This document shows, piece after piece, positions 46,292 to 64,000 of a stretch of DNA of 64,000 bases. The notes below the pieces were generated by a model that saw only the letters and a program-made list of their open reading frames with translations, made no database searches and had not been told where the DNA came from. This DNA is from a virus. The stretch is from the IMG/VR virus record IMGVR_UViG_3300022927_001476, positions 33,680-97,679 of that record; one strand, given 5' to 3'. The position numbers and the translations under genes were made by a program. Position 1 is the stretch's first letter. Every line of letters begins with the position of its first letter.

Positions 46292-47455
46292 ATGGGTACT
46301 TTACGATTAAAACGAGGCACTAAGACTGCACTTCAAAGCAGTCCTGGTTATACGCCAGCTGAAGGTGAACTCGTTTATACAACAGATAGCAAAGAAGTCT
46401 TTGTAGGTGACGGAGCCACACAAGGTGGTATTCCAGTATCAGTATCAACGCAAAACTTAGAAGATCTAGGCAATGTACAAGCATTAGCCGCACAAAAAGA
46501 TCAAATCTTAGTTTATAATGGTGCAAACTGGGCGGCGACGGATAACCCAGCACTAGACATTCGTGGTAATATTTACGGTGACGATTCAACGCTCCTAGTT
46601 GATGCAATTAACGGCAAAATTGTTGGACCTATTGAAACTACTTCTGTTATTAGTAGTGGCAATATTGTAGGTGATGTAATTGGCGATACTACAGGTACAC
46701 ACACTGGTAACGTAATTGGTGACAGTACAGGTACACACTTTGGTAATACTACTGGATTCCATACAGGTGATACTAAAGGTAGTGTGTTTGGTGATGATAG
46801 CGGACTACTAGTAGACGGTATTAAAGGTTTTATTGTTGGACCTATTCTAACTGAAACAACTCTTACAATTAGACAAGACGCACCTGCTCCAGTTAACAGT
46901 CTCTTAATTCAAGCACATTCTGCAGATGGTGCAACAGGACCAAAAATTAGAACTGAAGGTTCACGTGGTACTCTTGACAATCCGTTAGCTGTAATTGGTG
47001 GCACTACAGGTGACGCACTTACAGATATTCACGGTTTTGGTTGGGACGGAACTCAACAAACATTAGCTGGACAAATTAAAATTGCAGTTGATCTAGACGA
47101 AACAGTGTCAGACGGTATTATACCTGGAAGAATATTATTCCTACCATCAAACCAAACGGGCAATGTTACACTTGCACAAGTTATGACTTGGAATAGTAAA
47201 GGCAGACTTGGCTTAGGTACTAACAGACCTGATAACGTATTACACGTAGCAGGCGATGCAAAAATTACTACTGACCTTGAAGTACAAGGTACAGCAACAA
47301 TAAACAACAGTATTAACACTGGATATCATCAGTTTGCTAGTTTGACTACTATTGAACGTGATGCACTTACTCCAGTTAACGGAATGGTTATTTATAATTC
47401 AGATACTGAAAAATTCCAAGGCCGCGAAAACGGATCATGGGTTAACTTAGTCTAA
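46292..47455 (+). CDS. tail-fibre-like virion protein with GD/GT/GN repeats
   Basis: A 387-residue protein. Residues 1-46 (MGTLRLKRGTKTALQSSPGY, GELVYTTDSKEVFVGDG) match the small N-terminal module found on many phage tail fibres and tropism proteins. Residues about 123-170 are short repeats such as VIGDTTGTHTGNVIGDSTGT, likely a beta-helical or triple-stranded shaft. A pair of longer repeats also occurs (GDDSTLLVDAINGKIVGPI, GDDSGLLVDGIKGFIVGPI). The end has LHVAGDAKITTDLEVQGTAT and a possible receptor-binding tip. A late-type promoter precedes it. Confidence 0.78.
   Translation: MGTLRLKRGTKTALQSSPGYTPAEGELVYTTDSKEVFVGDGATQGGIPVSVSTQNLEDLGNVQALAAQKDQILVYNGANWAATDNPALDIRGNIYGDDSTLLVDAINGKIVGPIETTSVISSGNIVGDVIGDTTGTHTGNVIGDSTGTHFGNTTGFHTGDTKGSVFGDDSGLLVDGIKGFIVGPILTETTLTIRQDAPAPVNSLLIQAHSADGATGPKIRTEGSRGTLDNPLAVIGGTTGDALTDIHGFGWDGTQQTLAGQIKIAVDLDETVSDGIIPGRILFLPSNQTGNVTLAQVMTWNSKGRLGLGTNRPDNVLHVAGDAKITTDLEVQGTATINNSINTGYHQFASLTTIERDALTPVNGMVIYNSDTEKFQGRENGSWVNLV
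46658..46801 (+). repeat. in-frame repeat region of the fibre shaft
   Basis: Repeats read GD-x-x-G-x-H-x-G-N in the protein. In DNA, variants of ACAGGTACACAC recur about every 45 bases. Such repeats vary in number by recombination and alter fibre length. Confidence 0.6.
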
Positions 47456-48610
47456 GTTATACTGTTTAAGTAATTCTTTTCTACTTATTTTACCTTGTCC
47501 TTTACGTGGAATACTTTCTACGTAAAAGACCTTCTTAGGTATTTTATACCATGCAATTTCTTTAGATAATTGTTCTGTATCTATTTGACCAACAACTACT
47601 GCATAAACACTATCGTAGCCAAACACTACACAATCTATTGCTCCACATTTAATTAATGCTTCTTCTACTTCGTAAGGCATAATTTTAATACCTTCTTGGT
47701 TAATTACATCTTTAACTCTACCAGTAATAAACAAAAATCCTTCATCGTCGATATATCCTAAGTCTCCAGTATGATAACCATCAACTACAATTTCACCATT
47801 ATCAAATGTTACAGTTTTATTTGGTAACACAAATCCAACGCTACCATGTTTTTGAGGATAATGCATAATACTAATTGTTCCTGTTTCATTTAGCCCATAT
47901 GAATCAGTTGTAATACAATTAAAATAATTTTGTACTTCATATTTAAAATCTTTGTACATAGGTGCTCCGACTGTACGAATGTGTCGTACACTCATAGTTT
48001 CGTACGGTACTTTGCAATACTTCATTAATTTTAATAAAATACTAGGATTAGCTACAAAGAACGTAGGTTTAACTTTAGGCCATGATTCCCATACGTTATC
48101 TAAAACATAATATGTTGCACCAGTTCTATAACAAATTGAGAATAATTGAAAGCCTATACAAGCCCAAAGTGGAATACAATTTACAGTAGAATCTTTATTT
48201 GTAATATTAGCATGTATTTGTATGTTTGTATCTAAACCTTCAGTGTCATGATCATCTCTTGTTAGTGGTATTAATCTAAGTGCATCAGTACTACCGCTTG
48301 ATACAAACGCTGTTATCTCGTCATCATTACATTGATTATATCTAGGCTCTGGTAATACATCGTCCCATATATCAACATCATAATACTTACGTTCGATCTC
48401 TGTTGCTTTGTAGTCCATTACTACAACACTGCATACACTCATTACTCCGTATATTTTCATTAGATTAGTACAATTACTGTATACTCCTAATCTACAAGTT
48501 TTATCGTATCCTGCATCAATTAATTCTTTAGCATAACTTTGTGCTAAAGAATCAAATTGTTCTTTTGTATATGTATCACCATTCTCGAAAGAAAGTATTA
48601 TATTGTTCAC
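47447..48610 (-). CDS. AMP-forming acyl/aryl-CoA synthetase-like ligase
   Basis: A 387-residue ANL-superfamily enzyme, GTG start. FVSSGSTDALRLIPLTRDD is the P-loop region (A3), but the usual TGxPK lysine motif is altered to TDALRLI. YGLNETGTIS is A5. HTGDLGYIDDEGFLFITGRV, KDVINQEGIKIMPYEVEEAL is A7/A8, and GKISRKEL holds the C-terminal catalytic Lys. It activates a carboxylic acid as an adenylate. It is the last gene of a minus-strand operon with TctC and TctA, which suggests it activates an imported acid. It overlaps the convergent fibre gene by 9 bp. Confidence 0.82.
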   Translation of the reverse strand: MNNIILSFENGDTYTKEQFDSLAQSYAKELIDAGYDKTCRLGVYSNCTNLMKIYGVMSVCSVVVMDYKATEIERKYYDVDIWDDVLPEPRYNQCNDDEITAFVSSGSTDALRLIPLTRDDHDTEGLDTNIQIHANITNKDSTVNCIPLWACIGFQLFSICYRTGATYYVLDNVWESWPKVKPTFFVANPSILLKLMKYCKVPYETMSVRHIRTVGAPMYKDFKYEVQNYFNCITTDSYGLNETGTISIMHYPQKHGSVGFVLPNKTVTFDNGEIVVDGYHTGDLGYIDDEGFLFITGRVKDVINQEGIKIMPYEVEEALIKCGAIDCVVFGYDSVYAVVVGQIDTEQLSKEIAWYKIPKKVFYVESIPRKGQGKISRKELLKQYNLD

Positions 48611-49659
48611 TTTTTAATTATTCCTGGTTTAAGTACACTAGCTAATCCTAATGCTTCTTTATTGAATTTAACAAGATTTGTTAATGCATCTAGTGTTACA
48701 AGACTCATTAATGTATCTCTATGTGCATTTCCGTCAGCGCCAATTTTCCAATTATAAACGCCAACTTTGTTTTCTATAATTTTCTTACTATCTTTATTTA
48801 AAGACATATCATATAATGCTTGCTGTAATTTGGCAGTATTTGGATTGCCTTTGCGTACCCACAATGCTTTTTGCATACCGTCGCGAAAACTTTTTACAAG
48901 TTTATATGAATCATAGAAATCTCCGCTTGGCTTAACACCCCAACGTTTTTCAAATAGTATTTCAAGTTGGTATCCAGGATAGTTTGGATCATCTCCATGA
49001 TCTCCTGTTTCACTGTTTAGAATACCATGATGAAACCAAATTTCTGAATTATCATCTGATTCAACATGCTTTTTATATGCCGCTGGATTTTCTCTAGTAG
49101 CGTTTAGTTCACCACGTTTAAATGCTAGTCGACGTTCGCCACCGCTCATGCCTTTAACCCATGTTACGTTCTCTTTAAAACAAGCGATATATTCATCAAC
49201 TGTTTTGTCTGGTCCACATAGTAGAAGTGTCATTGCGAATGCTTCTGGAACCATACCTGAACCTGCCGCAAATCTAATACCACCATAGTCTAAATCAATA
49301 GCACGATTCTTGCCTACAATAATATTCAAGTTCATAAGTCCAATACTTTCGTATTCGGCATAGTTATAATCAACTTCTTCTTGTAGGAAACTTACACCGT
49401 TACCACCATGACTTACCATAATTACATCATTGTCATATTGCATTTCGTTATGAAATGTATCAAATCCTGGAATGTCTCGAGCGCCAGGAATATGTACAAT
49501 ATTAATATCTTCATTGAGATATTTTTCTAATTCTTTAGCAACGATTTCTGCCCAAACACTTGTACCATCTCCTGGTTTTTGTGGTACTACCATCGTATAA
49601 TCTGCATTTGCTACAGTAGCAAACATTACTAATACTAAACTCATAATTAACTTACGCAT
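48607..49659 (-). CDS. tctC: TctC-like periplasmic solute-binding protein
   Basis: A 350-residue protein with a cleavable signal peptide (MRKLIMSLVLVMFATVANA then DYTMVVPQKPG). The mature part fits the tripartite tricarboxylate transporter (TTT) binding protein: TMVVPQKPGDGTSVWAEIVA, NIVHIPGARDIPGFDTF and the GMSGGERRLAFKRGE segment. TTT proteins bind small organic acids in the periplasm. It lies directly after tctA (8-bp overlap), as in bacterial operons, but TctB is missing. A GGAG ribosome site precedes ATG 49659. Phages seldom carry transporters of this kind. Confidence 0.82.
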   Translation of the reverse strand: MRKLIMSLVLVMFATVANADYTMVVPQKPGDGTSVWAEIVAKELEKYLNEDINIVHIPGARDIPGFDTFHNEMQYDNDVIMVSHGGNGVSFLQEEVDYNYAEYESIGLMNLNIIVGKNRAIDLDYGGIRFAAGSGMVPEAFAMTLLLCGPDKTVDEYIACFKENVTWVKGMSGGERRLAFKRGELNATRENPAAYKKHVESDDNSEIWFHHGILNSETGDHGDDPNYPGYQLEILFEKRWGVKPSGDFYDSYKLVKSFRDGMQKALWVRKGNPNTAKLQQALYDMSLNKDSKKIIENKVGVYNWKIGADGNAHRDTLMSLVTLDALTNLVKFNKEALGLASVLKPGIIKK

Positions 49660-51085
49660 AATCTATTCTCCTTTTTGATTTTAATGCCCAAATTAGTGTT
49701 ACAATTATTATAAAAACTAATCCTAAGAATATTGGTTTATCTAACAGTTTATCAAATGTATAAAGTCCTGACATTTGAATTGTAAGAGCCTCTATTCTGT
49801 CAGATAGAATAAAGGCAAATAGCAGTGCAGGTCTGCTAAATTTGTATTTCTTTGCTAATAGTCCTACCACACTACATATAGCAAGTATAAAGTAATCTTC
49901 CCAACCGCCTGTATATTGTACACAAGCAAGTACTATAAAGCCTAATAGCAACGGAAAGTAGTATTTGTAGGGTATTTGTGCTATTCGGGCTATAAATGGC
50001 GTCGTAAACAAGCATACAGCGCCTACAAGCACTGTTGCAAGCATAAAGCCGTATAACATACTATCAAAGAATTTAGTGTCATTTGCAAGCTCTAAGGTAC
50101 CTAATTCAAAATTTAAATATGCAAACAAGGCCATTACAATGGCAGCAAAGGGTGCGCCTGGAATACCAAACAGTACTGTAGGAATCATGCTGGTTGCTTT
50201 TTGTGCATTGTTAGCACCTTCTGGTCCTATAACACCTTTGATATTTCCATTACCAAACTTGTCTTTAGGATGACTTGCAACTGTCGAACTGTATGCCATC
50301 CAATCTGCAACTGCGCCGCCTAATCCGGGCAATAAGCCGACAAATGCGCCAATGATTCCTCCACGCAATGCATCACGTTTATTATTCCAGACAGCAAGTA
50401 TTCCTTCTTTAGTTTGTGTACCATTTGCAAATGCTGGATTGCTAGTATTTGTACGATATTTAAGACCGCTTAATAATTCTGGAATAGCAAACAATCCGGC
50501 AACTAACGGCATTAATTGTACGCCTGCGCCAAGATATTCCCAACCGCCGGTCCATCGGTCTACATTAGTTGTAGGATCAACTCCTATTAATCCTATAAAC
50601 ATACCAAAGCACAATGCAATTACACTTCTAACCCAAAACTTATTTGTTATAAATGTTACGCATACTAACGCTAACATTGTAAATGCCCATAATTCTGGAA
50701 CACCAAATATCATTATTAGATCAGTATAATAAGGTAACAAGAAGAATGTAAGTGACCCCCATATTAATCCGTTCAATGTACTTGTAGTTACTGCGGCGCT
50801 AATAGCATATGTTGCTTTACCCTGTAGTGCTAATGGAAAGCCGTCTACCATAGTTGCCGCGGCTGAGTTTGCACCAGGTATTCCTAACAGTACACCTGTA
50901 TAAGTATCACCTGTTGTGCTTGCGGCTACAACTGCCATAACAAATATAACTGCTAGATACGGATCTGGAAATAAAGTAATAAATGAAAATACAAATATTA
51001 AACCTGTAGTTGCTCCTGCACCTGGCAGAATACCAATTATTAATCCATAAAATGTTCCTGCGAGTAGTGCCAATATCGAAGCCAA
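49652..51085 (-). CDS. tctA: TctA-like large membrane subunit of a tripartite tricarboxylate transporter
   Basis: A 477-residue very hydrophobic protein with about 11-12 membrane helices. The start is TTG 51085, six bases after GGAG. It has the TctA signature loops: IGILPGAGATTGLIFVFS, TTGDTYTGVLLGIPGANSAA and, in the second half, FVGLLPGLGGAVADWMAY and SMIPTVLFGIPGAPFAAIVM. Length is near normal (about 500). The TctB subunit (4 helices) is not in the window, so the system may use a host TctB or work as a pair. The cargo is unknown; it may feed the ligases and radical SAM enzymes nearby. Confidence 0.92.
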   Translation of the reverse strand: MASILALLAGTFYGLIIGILPGAGATTGLIFVFSFITLFPDPYLAVIFVMAVVAASTTGDTYTGVLLGIPGANSAAATMVDGFPLALQGKATYAISAAVTTSTLNGLIWGSLTFFLLPYYTDLIMIFGVPELWAFTMLALVCVTFITNKFWVRSVIALCFGMFIGLIGVDPTTNVDRWTGGWEYLGAGVQLMPLVAGLFAIPELLSGLKYRTNTSNPAFANGTQTKEGILAVWNNKRDALRGGIIGAFVGLLPGLGGAVADWMAYSSTVASHPKDKFGNGNIKGVIGPEGANNAQKATSMIPTVLFGIPGAPFAAIVMALFAYLNFELGTLELANDTKFFDSMLYGFMLATVLVGAVCLFTTPFIARIAQIPYKYYFPLLLGFIVLACVQYTGGWEDYFILAICSVVGLLAKKYKFSRPALLFAFILSDRIEALTIQMSGLYTFDKLLDKPIFLGLVFIIIVTLIWALKSKRRIDYA

Positions 51086-51108
51086 TATTTTCTCCTTGTA
51101 TATAATTA

Positions 51109-51137
51109 ATTATATCAGGAGAACATTTTTTTGAAAA
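51109..51137 (-). promoter_or_regulatory. possible promoter for the tctA-tctC-ligase operon
   Basis: On the minus strand a perfect TATAAT (51114-51109) lies 17 bp from TTTTCA (51137-51132, 4/6). The palindrome TATAATTAATTATA makes a -10 on the other strand too. Weaker than the plus-strand early promoters. Confidence 0.4.
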
Positions 51138-51142
51138 AATGT
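51123..51142 (+). repeat. inverted repeat next to the methyltransferase ribosome site
   Basis: ACATTTTT (51123-51130) and AAAAATGT (51135-51142) flank TTGA, directly before the GGAG site (51143-51146) of the gene at 51154. It could be an operator for the divergent genes or modulate translation. Confidence 0.45.
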
Positions 51143-51153
51143 GGAGAAAAATT

Positions 51154-51879
51154 ATGAATACACGAATTTTTTCGCTAGTTATGAAAAATTTAGAAGAAAC
51201 CTTTAATTTATCTAAGTACAAAGGTTTACAATTAAACAAGGATAGTATAGTAGACGACCTACCGTTTACTCCTGTGCGTAAAGAAAAGTTTGCACAAAAC
51301 ATCATGCACGAGTTAGATATTGAACATTTAGACTTAACTGGTACTATTGAACAATTTGTACAATCGTTAGATACCTTTTATATGAAAAGATTCTTTGGAG
51401 AAATTTGGAAACCTAATACTGACAATCATACTTACAGTGGTTGGAATATTGTGGAACGAATAAACAAACAGAATCCACGTAATGTATTAGACTTTGGATG
51501 CGGATATAATCAATTTAAACCACGTATTAAAAATCTAACAGGCATTGATCCATTTAACGATAACGCAGACTATATGGTAGATATTTTAGAGTTTAATGTA
51601 GATGAAAAATATGATCACATGATTGTGTTTGGCAGTTTAAATTTTGGTGACGAAAATGATATCCGTATAAGATTTGATAAGTTATATAATTTATTAGACA
51701 CTAACGGTAGAATGTACTTTAGAGTTAATCCGGGAATACTATGGCCAAAAGGACCATATGTAGATATATTCCCATGGACCTTCGAATTCGCTTACAAACT
51801 TGCTAAAGAATATAATTGTAATTTAGAACAGTACAAAAAAGATAATACAAGAATATATTTTGAATTATTAAAGATGTGA
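51154..51879 (+). CDS. SAM-dependent methyltransferase with a possible degenerate carrier-protein-like N-terminus
   Basis: A 241-residue protein from ATG 51154, seven bases after GGAG; ATG 51139 is less likely. Residues about 105-240 are a class I methyltransferase: NVLDFGCGYNQFKPR is the SAM-binding motif I, LTGIDPF the acidic strand 2. The first 75 residues (IVDDLPFTPVRKEKFAQNIM, HELDIEHLDLTGTIEQFVQS) resemble an acyl carrier protein in helix order but lack the DSL serine. It is divergent from tctA. With two ANL ligases nearby, a carrier-bound intermediate is conceivable but unproven. Confidence 0.65.
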   Translation: MNTRIFSLVMKNLEETFNLSKYKGLQLNKDSIVDDLPFTPVRKEKFAQNIMHELDIEHLDLTGTIEQFVQSLDTFYMKRFFGEIWKPNTDNHTYSGWNIVERINKQNPRNVLDFGCGYNQFKPRIKNLTGIDPFNDNADYMVDILEFNVDEKYDHMIVFGSLNFGDENDIRIRFDKLYNLLDTNGRMYFRVNPGILWPKGPYVDIFPWTFEFAYKLAKEYNCNLEQYKKDNTRIYFELLKM

Positions 51880-52593
51880 CACGGCTTTAGCAAACTCTAC
51901 TGTTTTGATAAAAGCTGTTTCGTTAAATTTAAGATCAAACTTGTTACATAATGTTAAGAAAAATTCTTTATCGTATAATTGAGAAACTTCTTTAATAATA
52001 AAATCTTTATCATCTGCCTTTTGTTTGTAACCGTTTATCTGCATAGTAAGGTCGTTAATTAAACATTCTTTAAATGTTATTCCGTGTTCGTTTGCTTTAT
52101 CAGTATATAAATCTTTAAAAAGATAATTTCTATTTTTTGGATCTACATAATAATGACATGTACTATTCATCCACCTAGTATATAATAGTTCTATATCTTC
52201 AGGAATGATTACAAAATGTTTTGCCGGATTAAAAAAATTCTTTACTCTATCTAAATCTGAGTGCAGTGTATATACAAAATTGTTAGGATAAAGATGTTGT
52301 TTCCATTTTTTAATTTCGTCTTGTGAATATTCTCTACCTTGCTTTTCGGCCATATCTAACACAGGAGGAATAGTTTTGTCACATACTCCTTTACCTAAAG
52401 CACCTTTAAATCTTTTATTGAAATGTAATCTTGAAAAATTAGAATCGTGCATAATATCAAACGGTTCCCAAGGATTGATTCCGTTTTGTATATGATCATA
52501 CCAACTGACATTATTACAACTAGAAATAATTCTTCCTGCAATATGTCCACCAGATCCCATAGGAAAATTAACTGTAATTGAATTATTATACAT
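51868..52593 (-). CDS. unknown protein, possible sulfotransferase-like P-loop fold
   Basis: A 241-residue protein from ATG 52593, after an AGGAAG site. TVNFPMGSGGHIAGRIISSC resembles the phosphate-binding strand-loop-helix of sulfotransferase-like enzymes. The rest is helical with aromatic and basic residues (KNFFNPAKHFVIIPEDIELL). It overlaps the short ligase gene upstream and converges on the methyltransferase gene. Confidence in the fold is low. Confidence 0.6.
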   Translation of the reverse strand: MYNNSITVNFPMGSGGHIAGRIISSCNNVSWYDHIQNGINPWEPFDIMHDSNFSRLHFNKRFKGALGKGVCDKTIPPVLDMAEKQGREYSQDEIKKWKQHLYPNNFVYTLHSDLDRVKNFFNPAKHFVIIPEDIELLYTRWMNSTCHYYVDPKNRNYLFKDLYTDKANEHGITFKECLINDLTMQINGYKQKADDKDFIIKEVSQLYDKEFFLTLCNKFDLKFNETAFIKTVEFAKAVSHL

Positions 52594-53263
52594 CAAGTCT
52601 TCCTAAATAATATAATCCTTTATTCTTATATGTTACAAGATCGCCTGTTGCAAACCAATCGTCATATATACACATTGGACTTTTTACATATAATTGATTT
52701 TCTTTAACTTTATAATTGCACCAAAATGTATTGCCCAAAATATTATCTTCTGCTGTGTCTCCAGGCTTGTACAACTTATTAATTACACATGGTCCAATTT
52801 CACTCATACCCCAATTTGCTAAAACTGTAGCACCTTGATCTATAAATGCTTGTATGTGATGTTTAGGAATTGGATCACTGCCCATTGCAACAAATTTACC
52901 CGTCAAATCAGCTGTTTTAAAGCCCTTAGTGCTTAGTAGTGCTTCGCACATAGCAGGAGCAATAAACGTGTGTGTATGACGCTTAAAACGCTTTAAAAAG
53001 GTATATGCGTTGAACTTTTCAATAGTTATATCACACCCTAATGTATATGCTGGCAAACTTTGAAGTAATAACCCACCTGCATGAGTCATTCTAGTAACTG
53101 TGTATACACTACTATTTTTGGTTAGTTTTTGAGCAGTAATTGCAGTATTAATGCAGTGTTTTAGATTTTCAGGATCTCTATAAATTTGCTTAGGTGTACC
53201 TGTAGTACCACTAGAACTTATATTACATCCTTGTTTTAAGATAGTGTCAAAGTTCAGTTCCAT
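52586..53263 (-). CDS. short AMP-dependent ligase lacking the C-terminal subdomain
   Basis: A 225-residue ANL enzyme core. ISSSGTTGTPKQIYRDPENL is a canonical A3 phosphate loop, LANWGMSEIGPCVIN is A5, and WFATGDLVTYKNKGLYYLGR is A7/A8. It ends at this hinge, so the mobile C-terminal domain with the catalytic lysine is absent. It is about half normal length. It might still adenylate weakly, or pair with another protein. The aminotransferase gene upstream on this strand overlaps it by 17 bp. Confidence 0.75.
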   Translation of the reverse strand: MELNFDTILKQGCNISSSGTTGTPKQIYRDPENLKHCINTAITAQKLTKNSSVYTVTRMTHAGGLLLQSLPAYTLGCDITIEKFNAYTFLKRFKRHTHTFIAPAMCEALLSTKGFKTADLTGKFVAMGSDPIPKHHIQAFIDQGATVLANWGMSEIGPCVINKLYKPGDTAEDNILGNTFWCNYKVKENQLYVKSPMCIYDDWFATGDLVTYKNKGLYYLGRLDV

Positions 53264-54083
53264 ACTGTGTTTTCTTATCCTCGTACTTTTGTATTAATAG
53301 ATCAGTAACCGAACCTGTGATAGTCGTTGGTGTCACACCTCCACTTGAACTTGTAATAAAAACTTCGTCTGCTGATAAAAACATTTGTTGTGTAATTGGC
53401 ATACGCTTAAAAGTAATATTGTTTTCTTTAGCAATATCTTCTACAACACTCATAGTAATACCTTTAAGAACATTCTTATCTGATGTTTTAATTACTCCGT
53501 CTTTAACAATTCCAACATTAAACCCTGGACCTTCTGTAACAAATCCGTCTACATCAACTAATACTGTAGTATCAAAGCCGGCAGGAGTTTTACGTTGACT
53601 AAGTGTTAAATCTATCCAAGCCATGTTTTTATATTCTTGTCCATAGTAATCATCGTTAACTCTATTTGTATTTTTGTCCAAATACAGTTTTACCATCGGT
53701 GTACTTGCTATAGGATAACTTGGTTTAATATACATTGCAAAATTTACAGGACAGTTTTCTAAGTCTCTAGGATTACCACTAGGCGGAAATCCTCTCCAGA
53801 TTATAAACCATACAAATGCATTATCAATTGGATTACGCTTTGCTAATTCTTTAATAATCTCTAGAGGATCGACGTCTGGAATAGTTAGTCCGTAGCGTTC
53901 TGCACTATTACGGAATCTTTGCAAGTGTCTTTCATAACAAAATGCTTTGCCGTTGTATACTGGCATAACATCATATGTAGCATCACAATGAATGAAACCA
54001 AAGTCAAGTATACTTGGTCCAATCTCTCCTAACGGTTTGTATTCACCGTTTTTATATGCTAATAAGTCTAATACGTTAGTCAT
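53247..54083 (-). CDS. class IV PLP-dependent aminotransferase
   Basis: A 278-residue protein from ATG 54083. ILDFGFIHCDATYDVMPVYN, then FCYERHLQRFRNSAERYGL give the fold-type IV N-terminal region. YKNMAWIDLTLSQR carries the PLP-binding Lys. VLVDVDGFVTEGPGFNVGIV gives the E-G-x-x-x-N motif, and FITSSSGGVTPTTI the cofactor phosphate loop. Members are branched-chain, D-alanine or aminodeoxychorismate lyase-like enzymes. It would put an amino group on a keto acid, perhaps a building block for the two ligases beside it. Confidence 0.88.
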   Translation of the reverse strand: MTNVLDLLAYKNGEYKPLGEIGPSILDFGFIHCDATYDVMPVYNGKAFCYERHLQRFRNSAERYGLTIPDVDPLEIIKELAKRNPIDNAFVWFIIWRGFPPSGNPRDLENCPVNFAMYIKPSYPIASTPMVKLYLDKNTNRVNDDYYGQEYKNMAWIDLTLSQRKTPAGFDTTVLVDVDGFVTEGPGFNVGIVKDGVIKTSDKNVLKGITMSVVEDIAKENNITFKRMPITQQMFLSADEVFITSSSGGVTPTTITGSVTDLLIQKYEDKKTQYGTEL

Positions 54084-56375: not shown

Positions 56376-57540
56376 AACATTTTGCAGTATGGCATGGGAT
56401 CATCAGTTTATTGATCCTACTGCACGAGTAAAACCATGTTGTAGGTTTGCTGAAAAGTTTAGACCAAAGGATCATAACCTAAACGATAAAACATTAAGTG
56501 AAATATTTTATGGTGACTGGATGGAAGAAATCCGTCGTAAGATGCTTGCTGGTGAACAAGTAGACGGGTGTGTACGTTGCTATCAAGAAGAAGAGTCTGG
56601 AAAAAAGAGCTTACGTGAACGCTATCTTGATAACGAAGCATTGCCAATTGATCAGTTAGTTGATATTGAAAATCCAAAAATAGGTTGGATCGAACTTGCT
56701 ATTAGTAATGACTGTAATCTTGCATGTCGTATGTGCGATAGTAGATACAGTTGGAAATGGTTTAATGAAGAAAAGTTAATCTACGGAAAATCGTTTAATG
56801 AAGTAGAAAAAAGTAAAAGTGATATTACTAACATATATCCGTTTATTAATGATTTAGTTCATGTAAAATTTACAGGCGGCGAGCCATTGATGACTAAAGA
56901 CCAATGGGTACTTGTAGATAAAATGCTTGCTGAAAGAGATTGCAGTGAAATATTTTTAAACTATAGTACTAACTGTACTATTATGCCAAAAGACAGCTGG
57001 ATTGAAAAATGGAGTAAATTTAAAAAAGTAGAATTTGCTCTTAGTTTTGATAGTGCTAATCCATCAGAAAGTGAATACATTCGCTGGCCTGCTAAGTACG
57101 AAACTACAGAAGCAGTTACTAAACGTTTTTTAGAACTTAAAAAGAGTCACGGATTTGATGTACTATTGCGTAGTACTATTAGCATACTCAATGTGTGGAA
57201 TATGCCTGAAAGTTTAGAATGGTGGTGGGAAAACGATCACGGATTTAAAGTTATGAATCCAACACACTTAACATATCCTGAGAAACTCTGTGTAACATCA
57301 TTGCCTGAACATATCAAAAAACGTGTTACAGAAAAATTTAACAACTATCAAAAAACTTGTACTAACCCAAAAATTAATAAAAATTTAGATTATATTAAAA
57401 ATTTTATGAATAGCAAGGATGATAGTTATTTACTTCCTAATCTTAAACGATATATAGAAATTACAGATAAGCATAGAGGACAAAACTTTTTTGAAAGTTA
57501 TCCACAATTTTCAGATATATTTGTAACTATTAAAGATTAA
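56359..57540 (+). CDS. radical SAM protein with N-terminal Cys cluster (twitch/SPASM-like), subfamily C
   Basis: A 393-residue protein from ATG 56359; TTG 56353 would add two residues. An N-terminal Cys cluster (Cys9, Cys27, Cys28, Cys71, Cys74) is placed before the radical SAM core, whose CNLACRMC motif is at residues 119-126. FTGGEPLM is the SAM-binding GGEP. Usually auxiliary-cluster domains come last, so this order is reversed. It is the only plus-strand radical SAM gene. Its closest relative here is the protein at 61713. It overlaps the QueC-like gene by 17 bp. Substrate unknown, perhaps peptides. Confidence 0.85.
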   Translation: MKIPSKTFCSMAWDHQFIDPTARVKPCCRFAEKFRPKDHNLNDKTLSEIFYGDWMEEIRRKMLAGEQVDGCVRCYQEEESGKKSLRERYLDNEALPIDQLVDIENPKIGWIELAISNDCNLACRMCDSRYSWKWFNEEKLIYGKSFNEVEKSKSDITNIYPFINDLVHVKFTGGEPLMTKDQWVLVDKMLAERDCSEIFLNYSTNCTIMPKDSWIEKWSKFKKVEFALSFDSANPSESEYIRWPAKYETTEAVTKRFLELKKSHGFDVLLRSTISILNVWNMPESLEWWWENDHGFKVMNPTHLTYPEKLCVTSLPEHIKKRVTEKFNNYQKTCTNPKINKNLDYIKNFMNSKDDSYLLPNLKRYIEITDKHRGQNFFESYPQFSDIFVTIKD

Positions 57541-57853
57541 AAATAATGTGTTCGTTAATTGTGTGAGCGCCGCCTTCATTTTTTATGTCAGCAGGATTTT
57601 TACTACAAAATTTCTTACAAGCATAGAAGCAATCTGATTTATTCCAACTATTTTCTAATTTAGTTAATGCTTTACTTTCCCTTAAATCCTGTATGGATTT
57701 ATTTTGTGTATGCAAGTCTTTTAGATCTTCTCCGAGAAATTCTTTTAGATCATCAACATAAGGTTGATTAGCTATCCAACAGCATGGATAATAATAACCA
57801 TCACTATCAATATATTCTGCGGCTTTATTAATCTTACATCGTGGATAGATCAT
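57530..57853 (-). CDS. free-standing SPASM-like Cys domain (split from the upstream radical SAM core)
   Basis: A 107-residue protein. RCKINKAAEYIDSDGYYYPC, CW, then SDCFYACKKFCSKN give six or more Cys in the order of a SPASM auxiliary iron-sulfur domain. Its start ATG 57853 lies 20 bp inside the radical SAM core gene, one frame away. A run of six T (57853-57858) sits at the junction. Deleting one base would join the two into one SPASM protein like the one at 60772. It could be a natural split, a frameshift product or a sequence error. Confidence 0.75.
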   Translation of the reverse strand: MIYPRCKINKAAEYIDSDGYYYPCCWIANQPYVDDLKEFLGEDLKDLHTQNKSIQDLRESKALTKLENSWNKSDCFYACKKFCSKNPADIKNEGGAHTINEHIIFNL

Positions 57854-58457
57854 TTTTTATATTTTCTTCAAGTTGATTAATTGTTATTGTAGGATTAAAT
57901 TTATCACTATTGCGATTACTTTGTACTATCATAAACTGATCAAAATTTAATTGTTTAGCTATTACTAATGCTTGTGTAATAGTATTTTGATTATATTTAA
58001 AAAGTATATGTTTCCATATTAACTTAGTTGAACTATTATTTTTTCTAAATGCTTCTATACCCTTTACAATTAAATCCCACTTAGAATTTACTCGGTACAT
58101 GTGATTATTACTTTCAATACCATCAATACTAAAATTAATTTCGTCGTTGGCATCAAACACTTTTGCTAATTTACTCCACCAATCTTTACTTCTATAACTT
58201 CCGTTAGTATGTAAAATTAATTTAGCAGTGTTGTTCTTTTCTTTAATCTTACGTATTAATCCGATAAAATCTTTATGATATATTGGATCGCCGTGGTTTC
58301 CACAAATAATAATTTCGTCAAACGTAGATGTTAAATCACTATAGTGCTCAATATCACAATCTGTATTTTGTATTTTATCTGAATATATTGTTCTTGGACA
58401 CAAAGGACATTGTAATGGACATCTTGAAGTTGGTTCAATATGAATTATTCCGGGCAC
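57834..58457 (-). CDS. radical SAM core protein, subfamily B (split from its SPASM domain)
   Basis: A 207-residue protein, GTG start 58457. IHIEPTSRCPLQCPLCPRTI has the C-x3-C-x2-C motif (Cys13, 17, 20). ICGNHGDPIYH replaces the GGEP segment, as in its paralogue at 60772 where it reads NFCGSVDEP. The C-terminal auxiliary domain is missing here and encoded separately by the overlapping gene at 57530. It overlaps the upstream radical SAM gene by 13 bp. Confidence 0.85.
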   Translation of the reverse strand: MPGIIHIEPTSRCPLQCPLCPRTIYSDKIQNTDCDIEHYSDLTSTFDEIIICGNHGDPIYHKDFIGLIRKIKEKNNTAKLILHTNGSYRSKDWWSKLAKVFDANDEINFSIDGIESNNHMYRVNSKWDLIVKGIEAFRKNNSSTKLIWKHILFKYNQNTITQALVIAKQLNFDQFMIVQSNRNSDKFNPTITINQLEENIKNDLSTM

Positions 58458-59569
58458 ACTACTTTCCTTTTTGGTATTTTTGAATCTGCACTTGAGACAC
58501 AGGAGTTTGTAATGCAGGGCATAGGGGTATCAAAGAGTTTAAATCCTGTTTCAATATTTCCAAGCGGCACATCGTGACAGGAATAGGATCGCTTAACGGA
58601 ACCGTCGGGCTCTCTAATAATGATTCCTTGGTATCCGGCATTGCAATTCCAACCTTTAAAGTTATTAAAATTAAAAGCATTAAAACGCTCAGCTTGATCC
58701 ATGTACCATTTTTTTCCATTTTTATCCTCAAATTCTACTTGCATATGCCAAGGTACACTAGCGTCGTTGGTGCCATTTATTCCTTTAGGTATTTCGAATG
58801 ACGGTTTAGGCCTGCCGTCCCATTTTCGTTTACTTTCTGTGTATGCCCTTTGCGGCATTCCGTTGTAGAGTTTTTTAAGTTGTTCTTCTGTATATCCATC
58901 AACCACTCTTGAGGCAGTTGGATCGGACTGAGGCTTAAGAGTGACATTGATACCTTGCTCGTGGAAGAACAGAGCGTTTTCCCAATCTCTTTCAAACCAT
59001 TCAGGAACCATAACTTGATTAATTGTAATTTGTACATCGTTTTCTTGACACAGGATTAATTTGTCTGCGAACTCCTGCATCTTCTCCTTTGTGTTTACAT
59101 GTTCTGTATGCAGACTTGCTGTAATACTTGCCCTATGAAAGGGCTTTGCATAATCAACATAAGTTTCAAACCACTTCATATTTCTACTACAATTTGAAGT
59201 CATGTGTATACTTGTATAGTTTGTGTTTTCTACATCTTCTGCAAGATGTTTGAGAATGTCCAAGTATCCAGGATGGAAAGTAGGCTCTCCTCCCGACAAG
59301 GAGAAGTGGAAGCTGTTAAAACCATTATCTCTTGCTTGTCTTTTTATTTCGTCCACTGTTCGTAGACATAATACAGTTGGTCTATGATCTTTTCTGTCAC
59401 TGCGAGCGTACGGCCAGCAGTAAGAGCATTTATAATTACAAAAACGGCCGAGCAACCAACTAACAGTAAAAAGATCCCTATAGAGTAGAGTTCTTTGCCC
59501 CACAGAGACAATATCCTCAAGAGGAATTTTAGTAAAATCATAATTGCTCCATTTTAGGTCTTCAGTCAT
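58445..59569 (-). CDS. radical SAM protein with C-terminal Cys motifs, subfamily A
   Basis: A 374-residue protein. LLGRFCNYKCSYCWPYARSD carries the cluster motif (Cys44, 48, 51). SLSGGEPTFHPGYLDIL binds SAM. GWNCNAGYQG, then SYSCHDVPLGN and CITNSCVSS give C-terminal Cys motifs for auxiliary clusters. It shares the 'GRxCNYxCSYC' opening with the proteins at 59588 and 62770, so these are paralogues. The minus-strand operon continues upstream. Confidence 0.87.
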   Translation of the reverse strand: MTEDLKWSNYDFTKIPLEDIVSVGQRTLLYRDLFTVSWLLGRFCNYKCSYCWPYARSDRKDHRPTVLCLRTVDEIKRQARDNGFNSFHFSLSGGEPTFHPGYLDILKHLAEDVENTNYTSIHMTSNCSRNMKWFETYVDYAKPFHRASITASLHTEHVNTKEKMQEFADKLILCQENDVQITINQVMVPEWFERDWENALFFHEQGINVTLKPQSDPTASRVVDGYTEEQLKKLYNGMPQRAYTESKRKWDGRPKPSFEIPKGINGTNDASVPWHMQVEFEDKNGKKWYMDQAERFNAFNFNNFKGWNCNAGYQGIIIREPDGSVKRSYSCHDVPLGNIETGFKLFDTPMPCITNSCVSSADSKIPKRKVVCPE

Positions 59570-59587
59570 AATACTATACTAACACAC

Positions 59588-60772
59588 TTATTGATCTTTG
59601 TCAACCTTCCATTCAATCATATCTTTAATTAAATGATAATGTTCCCAGTCTTTAATCTTAGGAACTTTTAAATCTAAATTATCTGTACATCTCCACTTAG
59701 GACATCTAATAGGTTCTAAAGGAAGATCAATTGAGTCTTTATCATAAATGTTTCCTCTCTTTCCTCCAACGTGACAACTGCCAATATAAATGTCTCCCGG
59801 AGGAGTTACTTTTAAATGTTTTACACCTGCCCAACATAGCCAGCCTTCATAATTATTTTTCTTGTCAAAATTAAGTTCGTTGTAATGAAAGTCAATATCT
59901 TTGTATTGTTTTTCTTCATCTTGGAACCAAAACTTTAATTTACGTTTATCTGGAGTAACAGTGCTTTCATAAATTCTCTTAATTTTATCTTCTTCGCCTT
60001 CTTTATAAAATTTCTTTTCTCTAGTTTCAATTACCTTAATTTCTACTTCGTCGTCCGTAGACAATAGTATTTTAGGATCCATTGTATCATTATTTTTTTC
60101 AAAGTCTAGTTTTGTTCTAGGTAATAGTTCATTACTATTGCCGCCTGGTGGACGTATATATCTATGTTCAATATTAGTAATGCCATGATTCCTAAATGCA
60201 GTTTCCATTTTTTCAATATTATTAAACTGCTCAGGATAAACCATAAATCTTAATATTAAATTTTTTCGAGTATAACCGTTTTTAAAGTCTTTATGATTAA
60301 GTCCTTTTTCTTCTTGTTCTTTATTCCATGCCACACGCCAATCATCCAGTTCAATAAACTTTTCAATAAATTCATCAACCTTATCTGCCATGTGTTCAAA
60401 ATGAAAACTAACTGTAATACTGTCTAGATATCGGAATAGCTCTTTTAAATATTTTGCAGTTCTACTTCCATTAGTAGTAATACTAATAAATCTTGCACCT
60501 TTTTCTTCTTTAATGTACTTACACAACTCCATAAACTTTGGATTCACAGTAGGCTCTCCACCTGTCAAACTCCAAAATACATTAGTGCCATGTTCTTCAT
60601 AAACTACATCAACAAGACGCTTCATGTTTTCTAACGGAACGTGTGGACTATGATTATCGTGCAAATAATCTACACAATAACTGCAATCATAATTACATCT
60701 TTTTCCAATATACCAATCGACACTAAATGCGCCAGTTGGATTAAATTTAAAATAACTTGCTACTGGTTCCAT
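59588..60772 (-). CDS. radical SAM protein with C-terminal Cys motifs, subfamily A
   Basis: A 394-residue protein. YIGKRCNYDCSYCVDYLHDN carries the cluster motif (Cys26, 30, 33), followed by SPHVPLENMK. WSLTGGEPTVNPKFMEL binds SAM. The insertion between about residues 150 and 260 is long and charged. GWLCWAGVKHL, then YIGSCHVGGKRGN and IRCPKWRC complete the auxiliary Cys. The start overlaps the upstream stop (TAATG). Paralogue of the proteins at 58445 and 62770. Confidence 0.87.
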   Translation of the reverse strand: MEPVASYFKFNPTGAFSVDWYIGKRCNYDCSYCVDYLHDNHSPHVPLENMKRLVDVVYEEHGTNVFWSLTGGEPTVNPKFMELCKYIKEEKGARFISITTNGSRTAKYLKELFRYLDSITVSFHFEHMADKVDEFIEKFIELDDWRVAWNKEQEEKGLNHKDFKNGYTRKNLILRFMVYPEQFNNIEKMETAFRNHGITNIEHRYIRPPGGNSNELLPRTKLDFEKNNDTMDPKILLSTDDEVEIKVIETREKKFYKEGEEDKIKRIYESTVTPDKRKLKFWFQDEEKQYKDIDFHYNELNFDKKNNYEGWLCWAGVKHLKVTPPGDIYIGSCHVGGKRGNIYDKDSIDLPLEPIRCPKWRCTDNLDLKVPKIKDWEHYHLIKDMIEWKVDKDQ

Positions 60773-61713
60773 TATAGTTTATCCTTTATAAACTTATCTC
60801 TTTTGTTTTCTTTACATACTTGCTCACATCTTGGAATTTTATTGTCTGACGTCCAACTGTTTTTAATATCAGTCCAAACTTTTCCGTTAATTGCTTGCTC
60901 TAAGCTAACATTTTTTAAATTAATATCTGTTAGATAATCTTGTTGTTCTAGTATGTCTTCAAATCTATCCTTTGGAATAGAAGATACAGAATATTCTAAC
61001 ATCTTTGCATTTAAATGACAGCATGGAATTACATTTCCCATATGATTTACAAAAATACGTTTTTGATTACCGTACTTGCAACTGATACAATTAGACTCTT
61101 CTACTTCAACTTTTTTATGTTTTACTCCGCCAGTATCTTTTCTATGACTAATGATCGTTTTAAATTCTTTAAAGCCTTCATTTGTTGCCATTTGTTTTGC
61201 AACTTCTAGTTGGTGTTCATTGTGTTCAAATACAATAAACTGCCAATTGGCTTTGCCGCCTGCTCCAATAAATGCTCTATAATTTTGCTGTACTTTTTTA
61301 AAATTAGAGCCTTCTCTATAAACTTCACTTAGTTCGTCGCTACCATCAATGCCCCATGTTACCTTATGGCTCGGCGGCATAATCTTTGCTAGTTTTTCCC
61401 ACCATTGTGTAGTACGCAAACTACCATTGGTTGCAACATTAATATGACATCCCCATTCTGCAAAGTGTTCTACTATTTCATGAAACTGAGGATGACTGCA
61501 AGGTTCGTCCACACTGCCACAAAAATTGATAATCTTAATATTAGGAAACATTTCCTTTTGAAATCTTTGCTTAATAACTTCAAGATCTAAATAAGTTTTA
61601 TTTAAAATTTGATCTGCATGTTTAGATATCACTCTAAAACAACCTTTGCACTTAATATTACAAAAGCTAGTAAGTTCAATATCAATCCATTCTAGTGTAT
61701 CAGTTGTCCACAT
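60772..61713 (-). CDS. radical SAM-SPASM protein, subfamily B
   Basis: A 313-residue protein. IELTSFCNIKCKGCFRVISK has the cluster motif (Cys18, 22, 25). IINFCGSVDEPCSHPQF is a divergent GGEP segment. ESNCISCKYGNQKRIFVNHM, GNVIPCCHLNAK and IPRCEQVCKEN form a C-terminal SPASM domain. It is the intact counterpart of the split gene pair at 57530/57834. It is coupled to both neighbours in the operon. Confidence 0.87.
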   Translation of the reverse strand: MWTTDTLEWIDIELTSFCNIKCKGCFRVISKHADQILNKTYLDLEVIKQRFQKEMFPNIKIINFCGSVDEPCSHPQFHEIVEHFAEWGCHINVATNGSLRTTQWWEKLAKIMPPSHKVTWGIDGSDELSEVYREGSNFKKVQQNYRAFIGAGGKANWQFIVFEHNEHQLEVAKQMATNEGFKEFKTIISHRKDTGGVKHKKVEVEESNCISCKYGNQKRIFVNHMGNVIPCCHLNAKMLEYSVSSIPKDRFEDILEQQDYLTDINLKNVSLEQAINGKVWTDIKNSWTSDNKIPRCEQVCKENKRDKFIKDKL

Positions 61714-62777
61714 TATTCAAAGCACCACGGTAAGGTTGTTTTACTATCAGTTCCTCTTGCATTATCAAGTTCCAATAGATAGTTTTGCATTTTAATATTC
61801 TTTTCGTTGTCAAATTTATAATCTTTTAAAAATTCTTTTAATAAATCTATCGACGTTGTATCTTTAACTCTTTCAACTACTGATGGTTTTAAACTATTAA
61901 TACTTAAATGAGAAGGCGTATTAAGTTTATGTATTTCCCATCGACCCCAATTTGATACTTTGTTGACTGTTTTATCTACATTTGGAAGATTCATTGCTTG
62001 AACTGTTATATTAAAATAAAAATCTTTAGTAATACTAGTTAGCTCTTTAACATTCTTAACAAAAGTTTCGTGCTTTGTAGGATACCTAATGATTTCATTA
62101 ACTGTTCCCCATCCGTCTATACTAATTCCAAAGTTTAGTTTTTTAAAGCGTTTTAATATCTTTAATAACTTTGGTGTATTACTCACTGCATTAGTTTGAA
62201 CTACAATCATTGTATTGTTACAATTCCAAGGGTGTTCTGATAATTTAGTAAGAAATGTTTGAACTGCTTTCATATAGAAAGGTTCGCCGCCTGCAATATA
62301 GATTTCTTCAGCAACGTTGATACAATTATCATAAATCCAGTCCCAGTCTAGCCCTTCTCTATCATTTTGTTCTAAATAAACTTTTCCATTATACTTTTCA
62401 AAAATTTCTAAGTCTTCTCCCCACTTAGAGCTATTGTAAGGATTACACATTGCACATTTTAAATTACATGTGAATCCTGGTCTAAGGTCCCATCTTAAAA
62501 GTTTTCCAGGAGATCCTCTTAATAAACTTTTTTGCCTCTTACTTTGTAAGCCTATTATTTCTTTAGATATACAACTTTGGCATTCAGGACGTTTCCAATC
62601 ATCCTTAAATCCTTGTTGTATATTTTTAATAATAGGATTATCAACTAGTTCTTGAATGTTTTTTACTGCATTATATTCTGTTTGCTTAAAAAGGCAACAT
62701 GGCGAAATAAGATATCCGCTACTCCGTTTATCTACATAAATGCTGTTTAGTGATTCTAAACACTTATAATCAGACAT
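61713..62777 (-). CDS. radical SAM protein with N-terminal Cys cluster, subfamily C
   Basis: A 354-residue protein. Cys6, Cys27, Cys28, Cys66 and Cys69 form an N-terminal auxiliary cluster (ISPCCLFKQ, RPECQSCISK). DLRPGFTCNLKCAMCNPYNS is the core motif (Cys104, 108, 111), and IYIAGGEPFYMKAVQ binds SAM. The reversed domain order is shared with the plus-strand protein at 56359. It ends in LPWCFE, with another Cys. The start overlaps the upstream gene by 8 bp. Confidence 0.85.
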   Translation of the reverse strand: MSDYKCLESLNSIYVDKRSSGYLISPCCLFKQTEYNAVKNIQELVDNPIIKNIQQGFKDDWKRPECQSCISKEIIGLQSKRQKSLLRGSPGKLLRWDLRPGFTCNLKCAMCNPYNSSKWGEDLEIFEKYNGKVYLEQNDREGLDWDWIYDNCINVAEEIYIAGGEPFYMKAVQTFLTKLSEHPWNCNNTMIVVQTNAVSNTPKLLKILKRFKKLNFGISIDGWGTVNEIIRYPTKHETFVKNVKELTSITKDFYFNITVQAMNLPNVDKTVNKVSNWGRWEIHKLNTPSHLSINSLKPSVVERVKDTTSIDLLKEFLKDYKFDNEKNIKMQNYLLELDNARGTDSKTTLPWCFE

Positions 62778-63948
62778 CTAAGATTTCCACATTAAAATGA
62801 TTCTGTAGTGTGTCTTTGTAACTGTCTTTAAATTTACTTTTAGGTGCACATAATCCACAACTACATGTTTGTTTAGGACAAACAATTGTTGGCATTTTAT
62901 TCATTGATAACTTTTCTTTAAGATCTGCAATAATCTTTTTACCTTCACTTATTTTACCTATTGGACCTCTTGTACCATCAAATCGTGCTTGACATGTTTG
63001 ATGATGGAATACCTGATCTGTCTGTTGTTCTAAATGTAGGAAAAACCAATTTACACTACAATGCCAACCTTTAAACTCTCGCATGTTAACAAAGGTACTT
63101 TTGCGACTTTCGCCGCCAGCACTACTTAGACACATCTCTCGCATACCACAACATGGTCTTCCGATACTACTTCCTAAAACTTTTGTTGCTTCATTTTTCT
63201 TTTCGCCTGCGGCACTTAATACTTTTGATACTTCTTCTTCATCATTTAGTTTAGCATTTTTATATTTCCAATAATTTTTAATGTAATCTAATTGATCTGG
63301 TGTGTACTCATGAGCAAAAGTTGCTTTACTGTCAGGTTCTTCTCCAATAACCCTTGGAACATATTTACAACCAAGTGTGTCTAACCATTTGCACAATTCT
63401 TTACATTCGTCAAATTGTTGAGCATGAAACATAACATTAACATTCATTCGAAAGTCTTTAGGATATTTTATTTCTGCTTCACGAAATTGTTTAATTCTAT
63501 CCTTAACTTGCTGTCGTAATTTATCATCCGATTCAGTATGATAGCTAACTGTTACATGTTGTATATTTTCGATAACTGCTTCAGCCATTTTTTCACTCAT
63601 AGCCCCGTTAGTAGTTAATCCTATATTGGCATCCCATTTATGAGAATACTTTTTATAATATTCGTCATTTAAATATTTTACAAAAGGAATAAAATTAGGA
63701 TTTACTGTAGGTTCGCCGCCTGTAAAACTAATACTTGCTAATTTATTATTTCTATACTGCATATAGGTATCAATGTATTCAAACAAAAAGTCAGTATTAG
63801 ATTTAAGATCGTCTAATGATGCGTGAGGACTAAAATTGTCATGCCTATGAGCAGGGCAATAACTACAATCATAATTGCAACGTCGGCCTAAATCCCAAGT
63901 AATTTGGAAAATATTTCCTGATAATAAATCTATAGTGTCAAAACTCAT
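62770..63948 (-). CDS. radical SAM protein with C-terminal Cys motifs, subfamily A
   Basis: A 392-residue protein. DLGRRCNYDCSYCPAHRHDN has the cluster motif (Cys24, 28, 31), followed by SPHASLDDLK as in the protein at 59588. SFTGGEPTVNPNFIPFV binds SAM. C-terminal motifs RPCCGMREMC, GWHCSVNW, HHQTCQARFDGTRG and CPKQTCSCGLC give at least nine Cys for auxiliary clusters. This is the most Cys-rich of the seven. Its start overlaps the stop of a gene running off the right edge. Confidence 0.87.
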   Translation of the reverse strand: MSFDTIDLLSGNIFQITWDLGRRCNYDCSYCPAHRHDNFSPHASLDDLKSNTDFLFEYIDTYMQYRNNKLASISFTGGEPTVNPNFIPFVKYLNDEYYKKYSHKWDANIGLTTNGAMSEKMAEAVIENIQHVTVSYHTESDDKLRQQVKDRIKQFREAEIKYPKDFRMNVNVMFHAQQFDECKELCKWLDTLGCKYVPRVIGEEPDSKATFAHEYTPDQLDYIKNYWKYKNAKLNDEEEVSKVLSAAGEKKNEATKVLGSSIGRPCCGMREMCLSSAGGESRKSTFVNMREFKGWHCSVNWFFLHLEQQTDQVFHHQTCQARFDGTRGPIGKISEGKKIIADLKEKLSMNKMPTIVCPKQTCSCGLCAPKSKFKDSYKDTLQNHFNVEILDV

Positions 63949-64000
63949 ACTAATTCTTTCTCAGTTAATTTTTTAAAAAGCCATTGTGCTTCCCATTTAT
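63945..64000 (-). CDS. C-terminal end of an upstream gene (partial)
   Basis: On the minus strand the last 17 residues are KWEAQWLFKKLTEKELV, ending in TGA that overlaps the next ATG (ATGA). Too short to identify. The coupling shows that the radical SAM operon continues past the window edge. Confidence 0.55.
   Translation of the reverse strand, partial: KWEAQWLFKKLTEKELV

Follow-up and report, generated by a model that had tools for sequence, protein, structure and literature searches.

A radical SAM-rich gene island at a phage tail-fibre locus, its counterpart in Bdellovibrionota and a possible role in building glycan-like surface molecules

The 64,000-base stretch of viral DNA analysed here (the window) comprises bases 33680-97679 of the 97,679-base IMG/VR virus contig IMGVR_UViG_3300022927_001476, and its right end is the end of the contig. 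Beside a tail-fibre-like gene it carries a block of 19 open reading frames (ORFs; 47447-63948) rich in radical S-adenosylmethionine (radical SAM, rSAM) enzymes. In relatives of this virus, rSAM genes of three classes (F0, F1 and F2) form a linked set with a methyltransferase-like gene (F3) and glycosyltransferase-like genes (F4), and the set has a cellular counterpart in Bdellovibrionota. A plausible but tentative reading is that the block belongs to a swappable island for the synthesis or decoration of a surface molecule resembling a glycan. It is also conceivable, though doubtful, that the F0, F1 and F2 rSAMs together with F3 and F4 constitute an undescribed biosynthetic system that makes a new class of radical-edited glycoconjugates in many uncultured phages (some larger than 320 kb) and in Bdellovibrionota, and that the phage version is a fibre-locus cassette repainting the infected cell or the fibres.

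The initial annotation of the window had named seven rSAM proteins, and all seven withstand scrutiny: each ORF scores above the curated cut-off of PF04055 and has one CxxxCxxC triad, which places 7 of 7 in the radical SAM superfamily. The fibre gene and the rSAM part of the block are as follows.

46292-47455, plus strand: tail-fibre-like protein with an Mtd_N domain (PF18454, 43 bits), the conserved left border of the island, at the same position in 20 loci of the carboxylate permease TctA
56353-57540, plus strand: rSAM G (rS_G), N-terminal twitch type (PF04055; NF033640 302 bits, cut-off 170)
57530-57853, minus strand: free SPASM-like domain (PF13186 16.9 bits, cut-off 21.5), family F19
57834-58457, minus strand: rSAM F, core only (PF04055 38.6 bits)
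58445-59569, minus strand: rSAM E (rS_E), marker of the wider system, with seven invariant cysteines in a 27-row alignment and relatives in Bdellovibrionota (PF04055 51.8 bits)
59588-60772, minus strand: rSAM D (rS_D; PF04055 62.8 bits)
60772-61713, minus strand: rSAM C (rS_C) with SPASM (PF04055 35.9 bits, PF13186 29.6 bits)
61713-62777, minus strand: rSAM B (rS_B), N-terminal twitch type (PF04055 37.6 bits; NF033640 191 bits, cut-off 170)
62770-63948, minus strand: rSAM A (PF04055 52.9 bits)

The N_Twi_rSAM family (NF033640) is passed by rS_G, rS_B and an rSAM of a related locus (L010:4785-6197, 426 bits); the remaining five rSAMs of the block fall below its cut-off. In the alignment of 27 viral rS_E rows, 97 columns are invariant, including the triad and four C-terminal cysteines, a pattern that suggests one auxiliary cluster. 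Family F19 recurs in five loci, of which L010 and L011 belong to near relatives and L096, L115 and L122 are more distant; a frameshift is therefore an unlikely origin of the free SPASM piece.

Peptides are frequent substrates of SPASM and twitch rSAMs. This tendency, a weak NCBIfam similarity of the rSAMs to maturases and the adjoining fibre gene could together indicate that the rSAMs act on a peptide or on a protein of the virion, for instance the fibre, in the manner of ribosomally synthesized and post-translationally modified peptides (RiPPs). We consider such maturation unlikely: every maturase equivalog among the best 25 matches per window rSAM lies far below its cut-off, and the partner genes are of glycosyltransferase type, with a high density of glycosyltransferase family 2 (GT2) genes in the bacterial loci described below. 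The layout of the block also speaks against it. As initially described, the genes mostly overlap on the minus strand (16 of 19 ORFs), and coding sequence fills 99.1% of the block, with no gap above 74 nt. A RiPP precursor inside the block, none of which had been seen at the outset, is rejected on these figures; one could lie elsewhere.

The junction between the fibre gene and ANL1, the AMP-forming ligase at the left end of the block, recurs in contigs of four metagenomes (L123 and L114 at 100%, L090 and L105 at 93%), and the block is repeated in three near-relative contigs. The earlier concern that a misassembly or a bacterial fragment begins near 47.45 kb is refuted, and we give it practically no weight. 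A slightly lower G+C content and a strand skew that flips from about 47 kb would fit it, as would the rS_E relatives in bacterial chromosomes; however, the G+C drop at the block start is mild (0.33-0.41 in 2-kb windows before, 0.31-0.37 after), the junction is found in four metagenomes and the site in 20 loci, and tail-type genes, recognized by eye, lie on the far side in a relative. The block is under purifying selection, with dN/dS of 0 to 0.20 against a near relative in 17 of its 19 genes; rS_B (absent from the comparator) and rS_C (whose comparator protein is identical) were left out. Turnover is visible in the same comparison, in which identity is 73% for the aminotransferase, 77% for rS_G and 88-100% for the other 15 compared genes.

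The proposed search for the block in other phage contigs found it in near relatives, and found its fibre-side flank in TctA loci; the contigs may all be incomplete, and the locus sets are redundant and clipped at their ends. In half of the viral loci fetched by TctA alone (20 of 40), the left flank shows a constant set of six genes, in unchanged order and with at most one of them missing. The flank is kept in 16 of the 19 TctA loci of at least 15 kb, and 17 of these 19 contain at least one of the rSAMs. Such conservation supports the multi-step pathway suggested at first.

Genes to the right of position 64000, where the contig stops, can be seen only in a relative. In the 145,946-base relative G001 the island continues to a total of about 28 kb (about 45.9-73.7 kb of G001), of which the window block represents about 60%. 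The extension comprises a gene judged SGNH-like by eye, another four rSAMs (L010:1644-6197), F3 (L010:604-1440) and F4. Beyond this first F4 come a weak rSAM that misses the PF04055 cut-off (25.8 bits), a further copy of F4 and a pair of GT8-looking genes, for which Pfam gave no match; the far side is bordered by the tail-type proteins mentioned above. The G001 island holds at least 11 rSAMs, and G001 as a whole has 12 PF04055 matches. F3 and F4 have no Pfam match, and the members tried have no PHROG match. Structural modelling of F4 (L011:1595-2296; pLDDT 91.3) gave 51 PDB matches at E<=1e-3, and 49 of the 50 listed are glycosyltransferases; superposition on B4GALNT1 had a VIA Z of 11.9 (rmsd 2.7, 139 aligned). 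F4 is thus predicted to have a GT-A-type fold. In BFVD, two 'uncharacterized proteins' of uncultured Caudovirales phages match the model at TM 0.86. F4 also occurs in giant proteins of about 870-970 aa (L206:3090-5705, L241:2769-5687, L243:3027-5711), which by eye consist of repeats of about 110 aa resembling half an F4 domain, followed by one full F4 domain; the giant F4 of L206 and L241 and a GT8-looking protein have no PDB relative by sequence.

The rSAM, F3 and F4 genes are a linked set. The linkage was assessed in the best 80 loci of at least 583 viral relatives of rS_D, of at least 596 of F4 (by profile) and of at least 337 of PhoH, with redundancy kept. Among the 80 F4-selected loci, one of which (L171) lies on a contig used for profile training, rSAMs of classes F0, F1 or F2 lie within 5 kb in 70 and F3 in 43, compared with 3 and 0 of the 80 PhoH-selected control loci (Fisher 5e-30). 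At least three rSAMs were found in 70 of the rS_D-selected loci and F3 in 62. Because profiles F0-F4 were trained on 18 viral loci plus the bacterial loci, the counts in the rS_D-selected and bacterial loci, and that of rSAMs in the long TctA loci, are not independent of the profiles; F0-F2 are to be read as classes and not as orthologues, since F1 was built by single linkage and mixes the rS_E, D and A types. In L181 and L182, F4-F4-F3 are fused into a single polypeptide. All 31 viral records scanned, which came from among the larger contigs, have 3 to 18 PF04055 matches; 20 of them count for little because they were themselves picked by an rSAM, and the 11 picked by TctA also have 3 to 18. 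Among the 110 neighbour ORFs outside classes F0-F2 in 13 viral loci are AspH (9), QueC-like proteins (5), DegT aminotransferases (2), a carbamoyltransferase (1) and a UDP-sugar dehydrogenase (1). These tallies and the bacterial ones below exclude F0-F2 members and ORFs shorter than 110 or longer than 900 aa, and PF04055 still matched 8 of the 110 viral and 6 of the 125 bacterial ORFs.

That such a dense set is unusual in a phage holds for isolates: rS_E and F4, searched with one sequence each, have no match in 50,697 phage records, where rS_D, TctA, the class IV aminotransferase, rS_G, ANL1, rS_C and one extended-island rSAM have only distant ones. It holds less well for uncultured viruses, in view of the at least 583 stretches with relatives of rS_D and at least 596 with relatives of F4.

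The cellular counterpart was found by searching GTDB genomes with an rS_E profile. Nineteen of the 25 loci recovered are titled Bdellovibrionota or members of it and one has no taxon in its title; the remaining five are contigs of other metagenome-assembled genomes, of which at least two (L132, L156) look viral by gene content. Bdellovibrionota rS_E proteins, at 56-67% identity, are accompanied by rS_C-type, twitch-type, F3 and F4 genes: the 20 bacterial loci have all three rSAM classes in 16 cases, F4 in 10 and F3 in 8. They look chromosomal because their neighbours include housekeeping genes (for example a tRNA synthetase and a UvrD, one of each). In 14 bacterial loci, 15 of the 125 ORFs neighbouring rS_E are GT2 (PF00535), and the GT2 density of these loci is 71 per Mb (211 kb) versus 4.6 per Mb genome-wide (169 in 36.7 Mb, 11 genomes), an approximately 15-fold difference obtained at slightly different thresholds. 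Moreover, among 191 sampled genomes of the phylum, 12 have rS_E, 12 have F4 and 10 have both (Fisher 3e-13); when the six genomes that fed the F4 profile are removed, F4 occurs in 4 of 6 rS_E genomes versus 2 of 179 others (5e-6). In a 51-row, midpoint-rooted tree of rS_E (L155, clipped within the gene at the locus end, was left out), the window rS_E and its marine relatives join Bdellovibrionota, apart from 23 other viral rows (100/100). This grouping suggests gene movement between phages and Bdellovibrionota, the direction of which a midpoint-rooted tree does not settle. Upstream of the rSAM genes, three bacterial loci (L136:6708-7181; also L133 and L134) encode a 157-158-aa protein, whose start in L136 looks signal-like by eye. 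It adjoins a protein of about 300-330 aa that by eye is oxygenase-like in L136; the small protein is a possible candidate for a protein substrate.

The remaining genes of the window block are as follows.

47447-48610, minus strand: ANL1, AMP-forming ligase, N-terminally short (PF00501 56.9 bits, profile 122-354; 15 other ORFs in fetched loci)
48607-49659, minus strand: TctC-like, a putative binding protein (unproven label; 62-100% to 33 further ORFs of viral loci)
49652-51085, minus strand: TctA carboxylate permease (PF01970, E 1.9e-93; 40 viral loci)
51139-51879, plus strand: methyltransferase-like protein (PF13489 15.2 bits, below cut-off 27; relatives beside TctA)
51868-52596, minus strand: Unk242, predicted sulfotransferase-like fold (no family above cut-off; model pLDDT 71)
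52586-53263, minus strand: ANL2, half-size AMP-binding protein (PF00501 58.1 bits, profile 170-352; 20 other ORFs, 223-252 aa)
53247-54086, minus strand: class IV aminotransferase, a fold-type IV amine or branched-chain transaminase (PF01063 122.7 bits; PDB 6fte, E 9.6e-36)
54076-54333, minus strand: DUF6356-like small protein, membrane-type by eye (PF19883 23, below cut-off 24.4)
54317-54874, minus strand: GNAT-like protein (PF00583 13.8 bits, below cut-off 20.7; 8 other ORFs, 83-100%)
54871-55503, minus strand: Asp/Asn hydroxylase-like oxygenase, AspH (PF05118 26.8 bits; 50% to AspH of Pelagibacter phage Mosig)
55578-56375, plus strand: PP-loop, QueC-like protein (PF06508 QueC 29.6 bits, cut-off 22)

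Most of the initial labels for these genes stand: the two ANL ligases, the aminotransferase, TctA and AspH score above cut-off, and the PP-loop, methyltransferase, GNAT and SPASM assignments are approximate. That of TctC is unproven; it is based on the adjacency of the ORF to TctA and on a start that by eye resembles a signal peptide, and the ORF has no Pfam, PHROG, NCBIfam or PDB match. No match to the small membrane subunit TctB was obtained among the 19 block ORFs in a scan that a divergent TctB could escape. The Unk242 model superimposes on sulfotransferases (49 of the 50 rows listed) with a VIA Z of 10.0, an rmsd of 3.6 and 172 aligned. ANL1 and ANL2 are short in different ways, and the 223-252 aa form of ANL2 is kept in 21 of 21 filtered ORFs; the two short ligases may act jointly.

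Viral TctA proteins group separately, with 39 of the 40 viral loci at 65-100% identity and the best alphaproteobacterial relative at 48%. Relatives occur in 64 of 190 genomes in the class of G043, where the best reaches 48% and the remaining rows listed 35% or less. The transporter is absent from all 11 rS_E-bearing Bdellovibrionota genomes, and Bdellovibrionota as host or as source of the transporter is rejected on that account. Viral TctA indicates no host, because it is missing alongside rS_E in Bdellovibrionota and has only distant relatives in the class of G043.

The phage itself is T4-like as judged by eye and by its clamp loader (L009:14976-15938), whose nearest relatives are the Pseudomonas jumbo phage PA5oct and its kin (56%). 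Since two records with rSAM arrays also exceed 320 kb, the lineage may reach jumbo size. In the 64-kb window no tRNA genes were found, megablast of positions 1-25000 returned two short matches only, and a UDP-sugar dehydrogenase, an epimerase and a cytidylyltransferase are encoded at 25847-27745. HesB/IscA-like (L008:11523-11846) and ferredoxin-like (L009:16132-16470) genes, recognized by eye on the same contig, are candidate sources of Fe-S clusters and electrons for the rSAM enzymes.

Two further explanations bear on these genes. In one, which we regard as quite improbable, the QueC-like protein would complete a preQ0 pathway, and some of the rSAMs would further modify the base in the phage DNA. 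FolE (37384-38106; PF01227, 135 bits), a QueE-like rSAM recognized by eye (38213-39106; PF04055 22.4 bits, below cut-off) and a QueD-like gene, also by eye (L008:7644-8093), suggest a preQ0 pathway in the same phage, and the island PP-loop protein, the sole QueC match in G000 and in the 146-kb relative, may be its QueC. This protein, however, fails the QueC equivalog TIGR00364 (23.3 versus 150.3 bits required), and among 15 island-bearing virus records, all of them fragments, QueC is matched in 7 (2 over cut-off) and FolE in 6, so that rSAM arrays occur without QueC or FolE. The second explanation, auxiliary metabolism in which carboxylate uptake and cofactor-type enzymes would boost the infected cell, is likewise improbable. 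TctA is an uptake permease by family, and a published report counts TctA among the putative auxiliary genes of a SUP05 viral contig (PMC4164917), but the linkage of rSAM, F3 and F4, the fibre-side site and the gene swapping fit a surface or recognition role better.

Of the products first envisaged (peptide, amino acid, sugar or base), a sugar or glycan fits best, judged from context. We favour the building of a surface glycan because of the predicted GT-A fold of F4, the sugar-type neighbours, the fibre-side position, the gene swapping and published pelagimyophage clusters, and from these we infer the glycan nature of the product, its location and the order of steps. The island would make, transfer and decorate an unusual group resembling a glycan, carried either by the surface of the host or by the fibres of the virion itself. 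In this scheme, TctA and its partner would import a carboxylate that ANL1 and ANL2 would activate, the class IV aminotransferase would provide amino groups and the GNAT-like protein would move an acyl group, while the rSAM enzymes would carry out the difficult C-H reactions on a precursor that is a sugar or an acyl compound. The oxygenase, the methyltransferases and the sulfotransferase-like protein would then decorate the product, and the F4 proteins of putative GT-A fold would attach it. Swapping of rSAM genes between phages would vary the product, which is why the swapping fits receptor masking or change.

Several observations weigh against a surface glycan. No island enzyme has a known substrate, several gene labels score below curated cut-offs, and FolE and the QueE-like gene in the window keep base modification possible. 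F3 and F4 lie outside the window and are known from relatives only; F4 was found in only 30 of the 80 rS_D-selected loci, fewer than F3, partly because loci are clipped. Its Foldseek TM is modest (query-normalised 0.33-0.50 among the rows listed), and nucleotidyltransferases of related fold come near its score (Z 10-11). The Unk242 model is of middling confidence, and Foldseek alone left its fold undecided. GT2 is absent from the 25 families listed (27 matched) among viral neighbours, and the bacterial GT2 comparison sets 14 loci against 11 genomes. Finally, the fibre-side flank is missing in 3 of the 19 long TctA loci (L104, L110, L121).

Many rSAM genes in a phage are not new, as several known systems precede the island. 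Campylobacter phages CP220 and CPt10 are reported to have 11 and 12 rSAM proteins, five of which lie in an interchangeable central module (PMC2853527). Like the present island, that module holds several rSAM genes and differs between close phages; two genes with nucleotide-diphospho-sugar-transferase domains follow the module in CP220, and window rS_C has matches there at 25%. Unlike the viruses described here, CP220 and CPt10 have no rS_E or F4 match in their records, and the CP220 module has an amidinotransferase, none of which was matched in the 19 block ORFs or in the scanned part of the rest of the island. Likewise rich in rSAM genes is the marine T4-like genome TARA_ERS488813_N000010, with 12 of them and an Fe-S carrier gene; the section consulted discusses it as Fe-S metabolism and gives no partner genes, site or function (PMC5332604). 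The closest parallel in location is the host-recognition cluster of pelagimyophages, in which rSAM cassettes and genes of lipopolysaccharide type lie at the tail-fibre region and vary between phages (PMC7029224); the present island also lies at tail-fibre genes (on its far side by eye). An island by the fibres of Pelagibacter phage Mosig is analogous to the window block: it encodes AspH (50% identical to the window oxygenase), an acetyltransferase, three annotated molybdenum-cofactor enzymes, an ArnB-like aminotransferase, a carbamoyltransferase and an epimerase, with no TctA or ANL annotated in the stretch examined. Pelagimyophages have SAR11 hosts; the clamp loader of the present phage is nearest that of PA5oct. 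Excerpts of two virome papers (PMC7150976, PMC9301287) report Tasman Sea viral contigs enriched in rSAM and glycosyltransferase genes and counts of ahbD-type rSAM genes in Baltic viruses; these are gene tallies, and the excerpts describe no cluster. The Bdellovibrionota rSAM clusters differ from the viral island in being GT2-rich, in genomes without TctA (0 of 11). Literature linking Bdellovibrio, radical SAM and glycosyltransferase yielded nothing relevant in a search whose scope excluded preprints and most subscription journals.

Compared with these systems, and within the literature searched, what looks new is the set with F3 and F4, its linkage statistics, its Bdellovibrionota counterpart, its spread in uncultured viruses and the module of TctA, ANL and a sulfotransferase-like protein at a recurrent site. 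Phages rich in rSAM genes have been noted since 2010, with no function given in the available text of that report (PMC2853527). The markers rS_E, F3 and F4 turn this puzzle into a defined gene set, one that is nearly invisible in isolate collections and that can be tested without the virus because its counterpart sits in Bdellovibrionota chromosomes. If the proposal is true, it would bring new enzymology, a single viral pathway that uses many C-H-activating enzymes, and perhaps a general route by which aquatic phages change surfaces.

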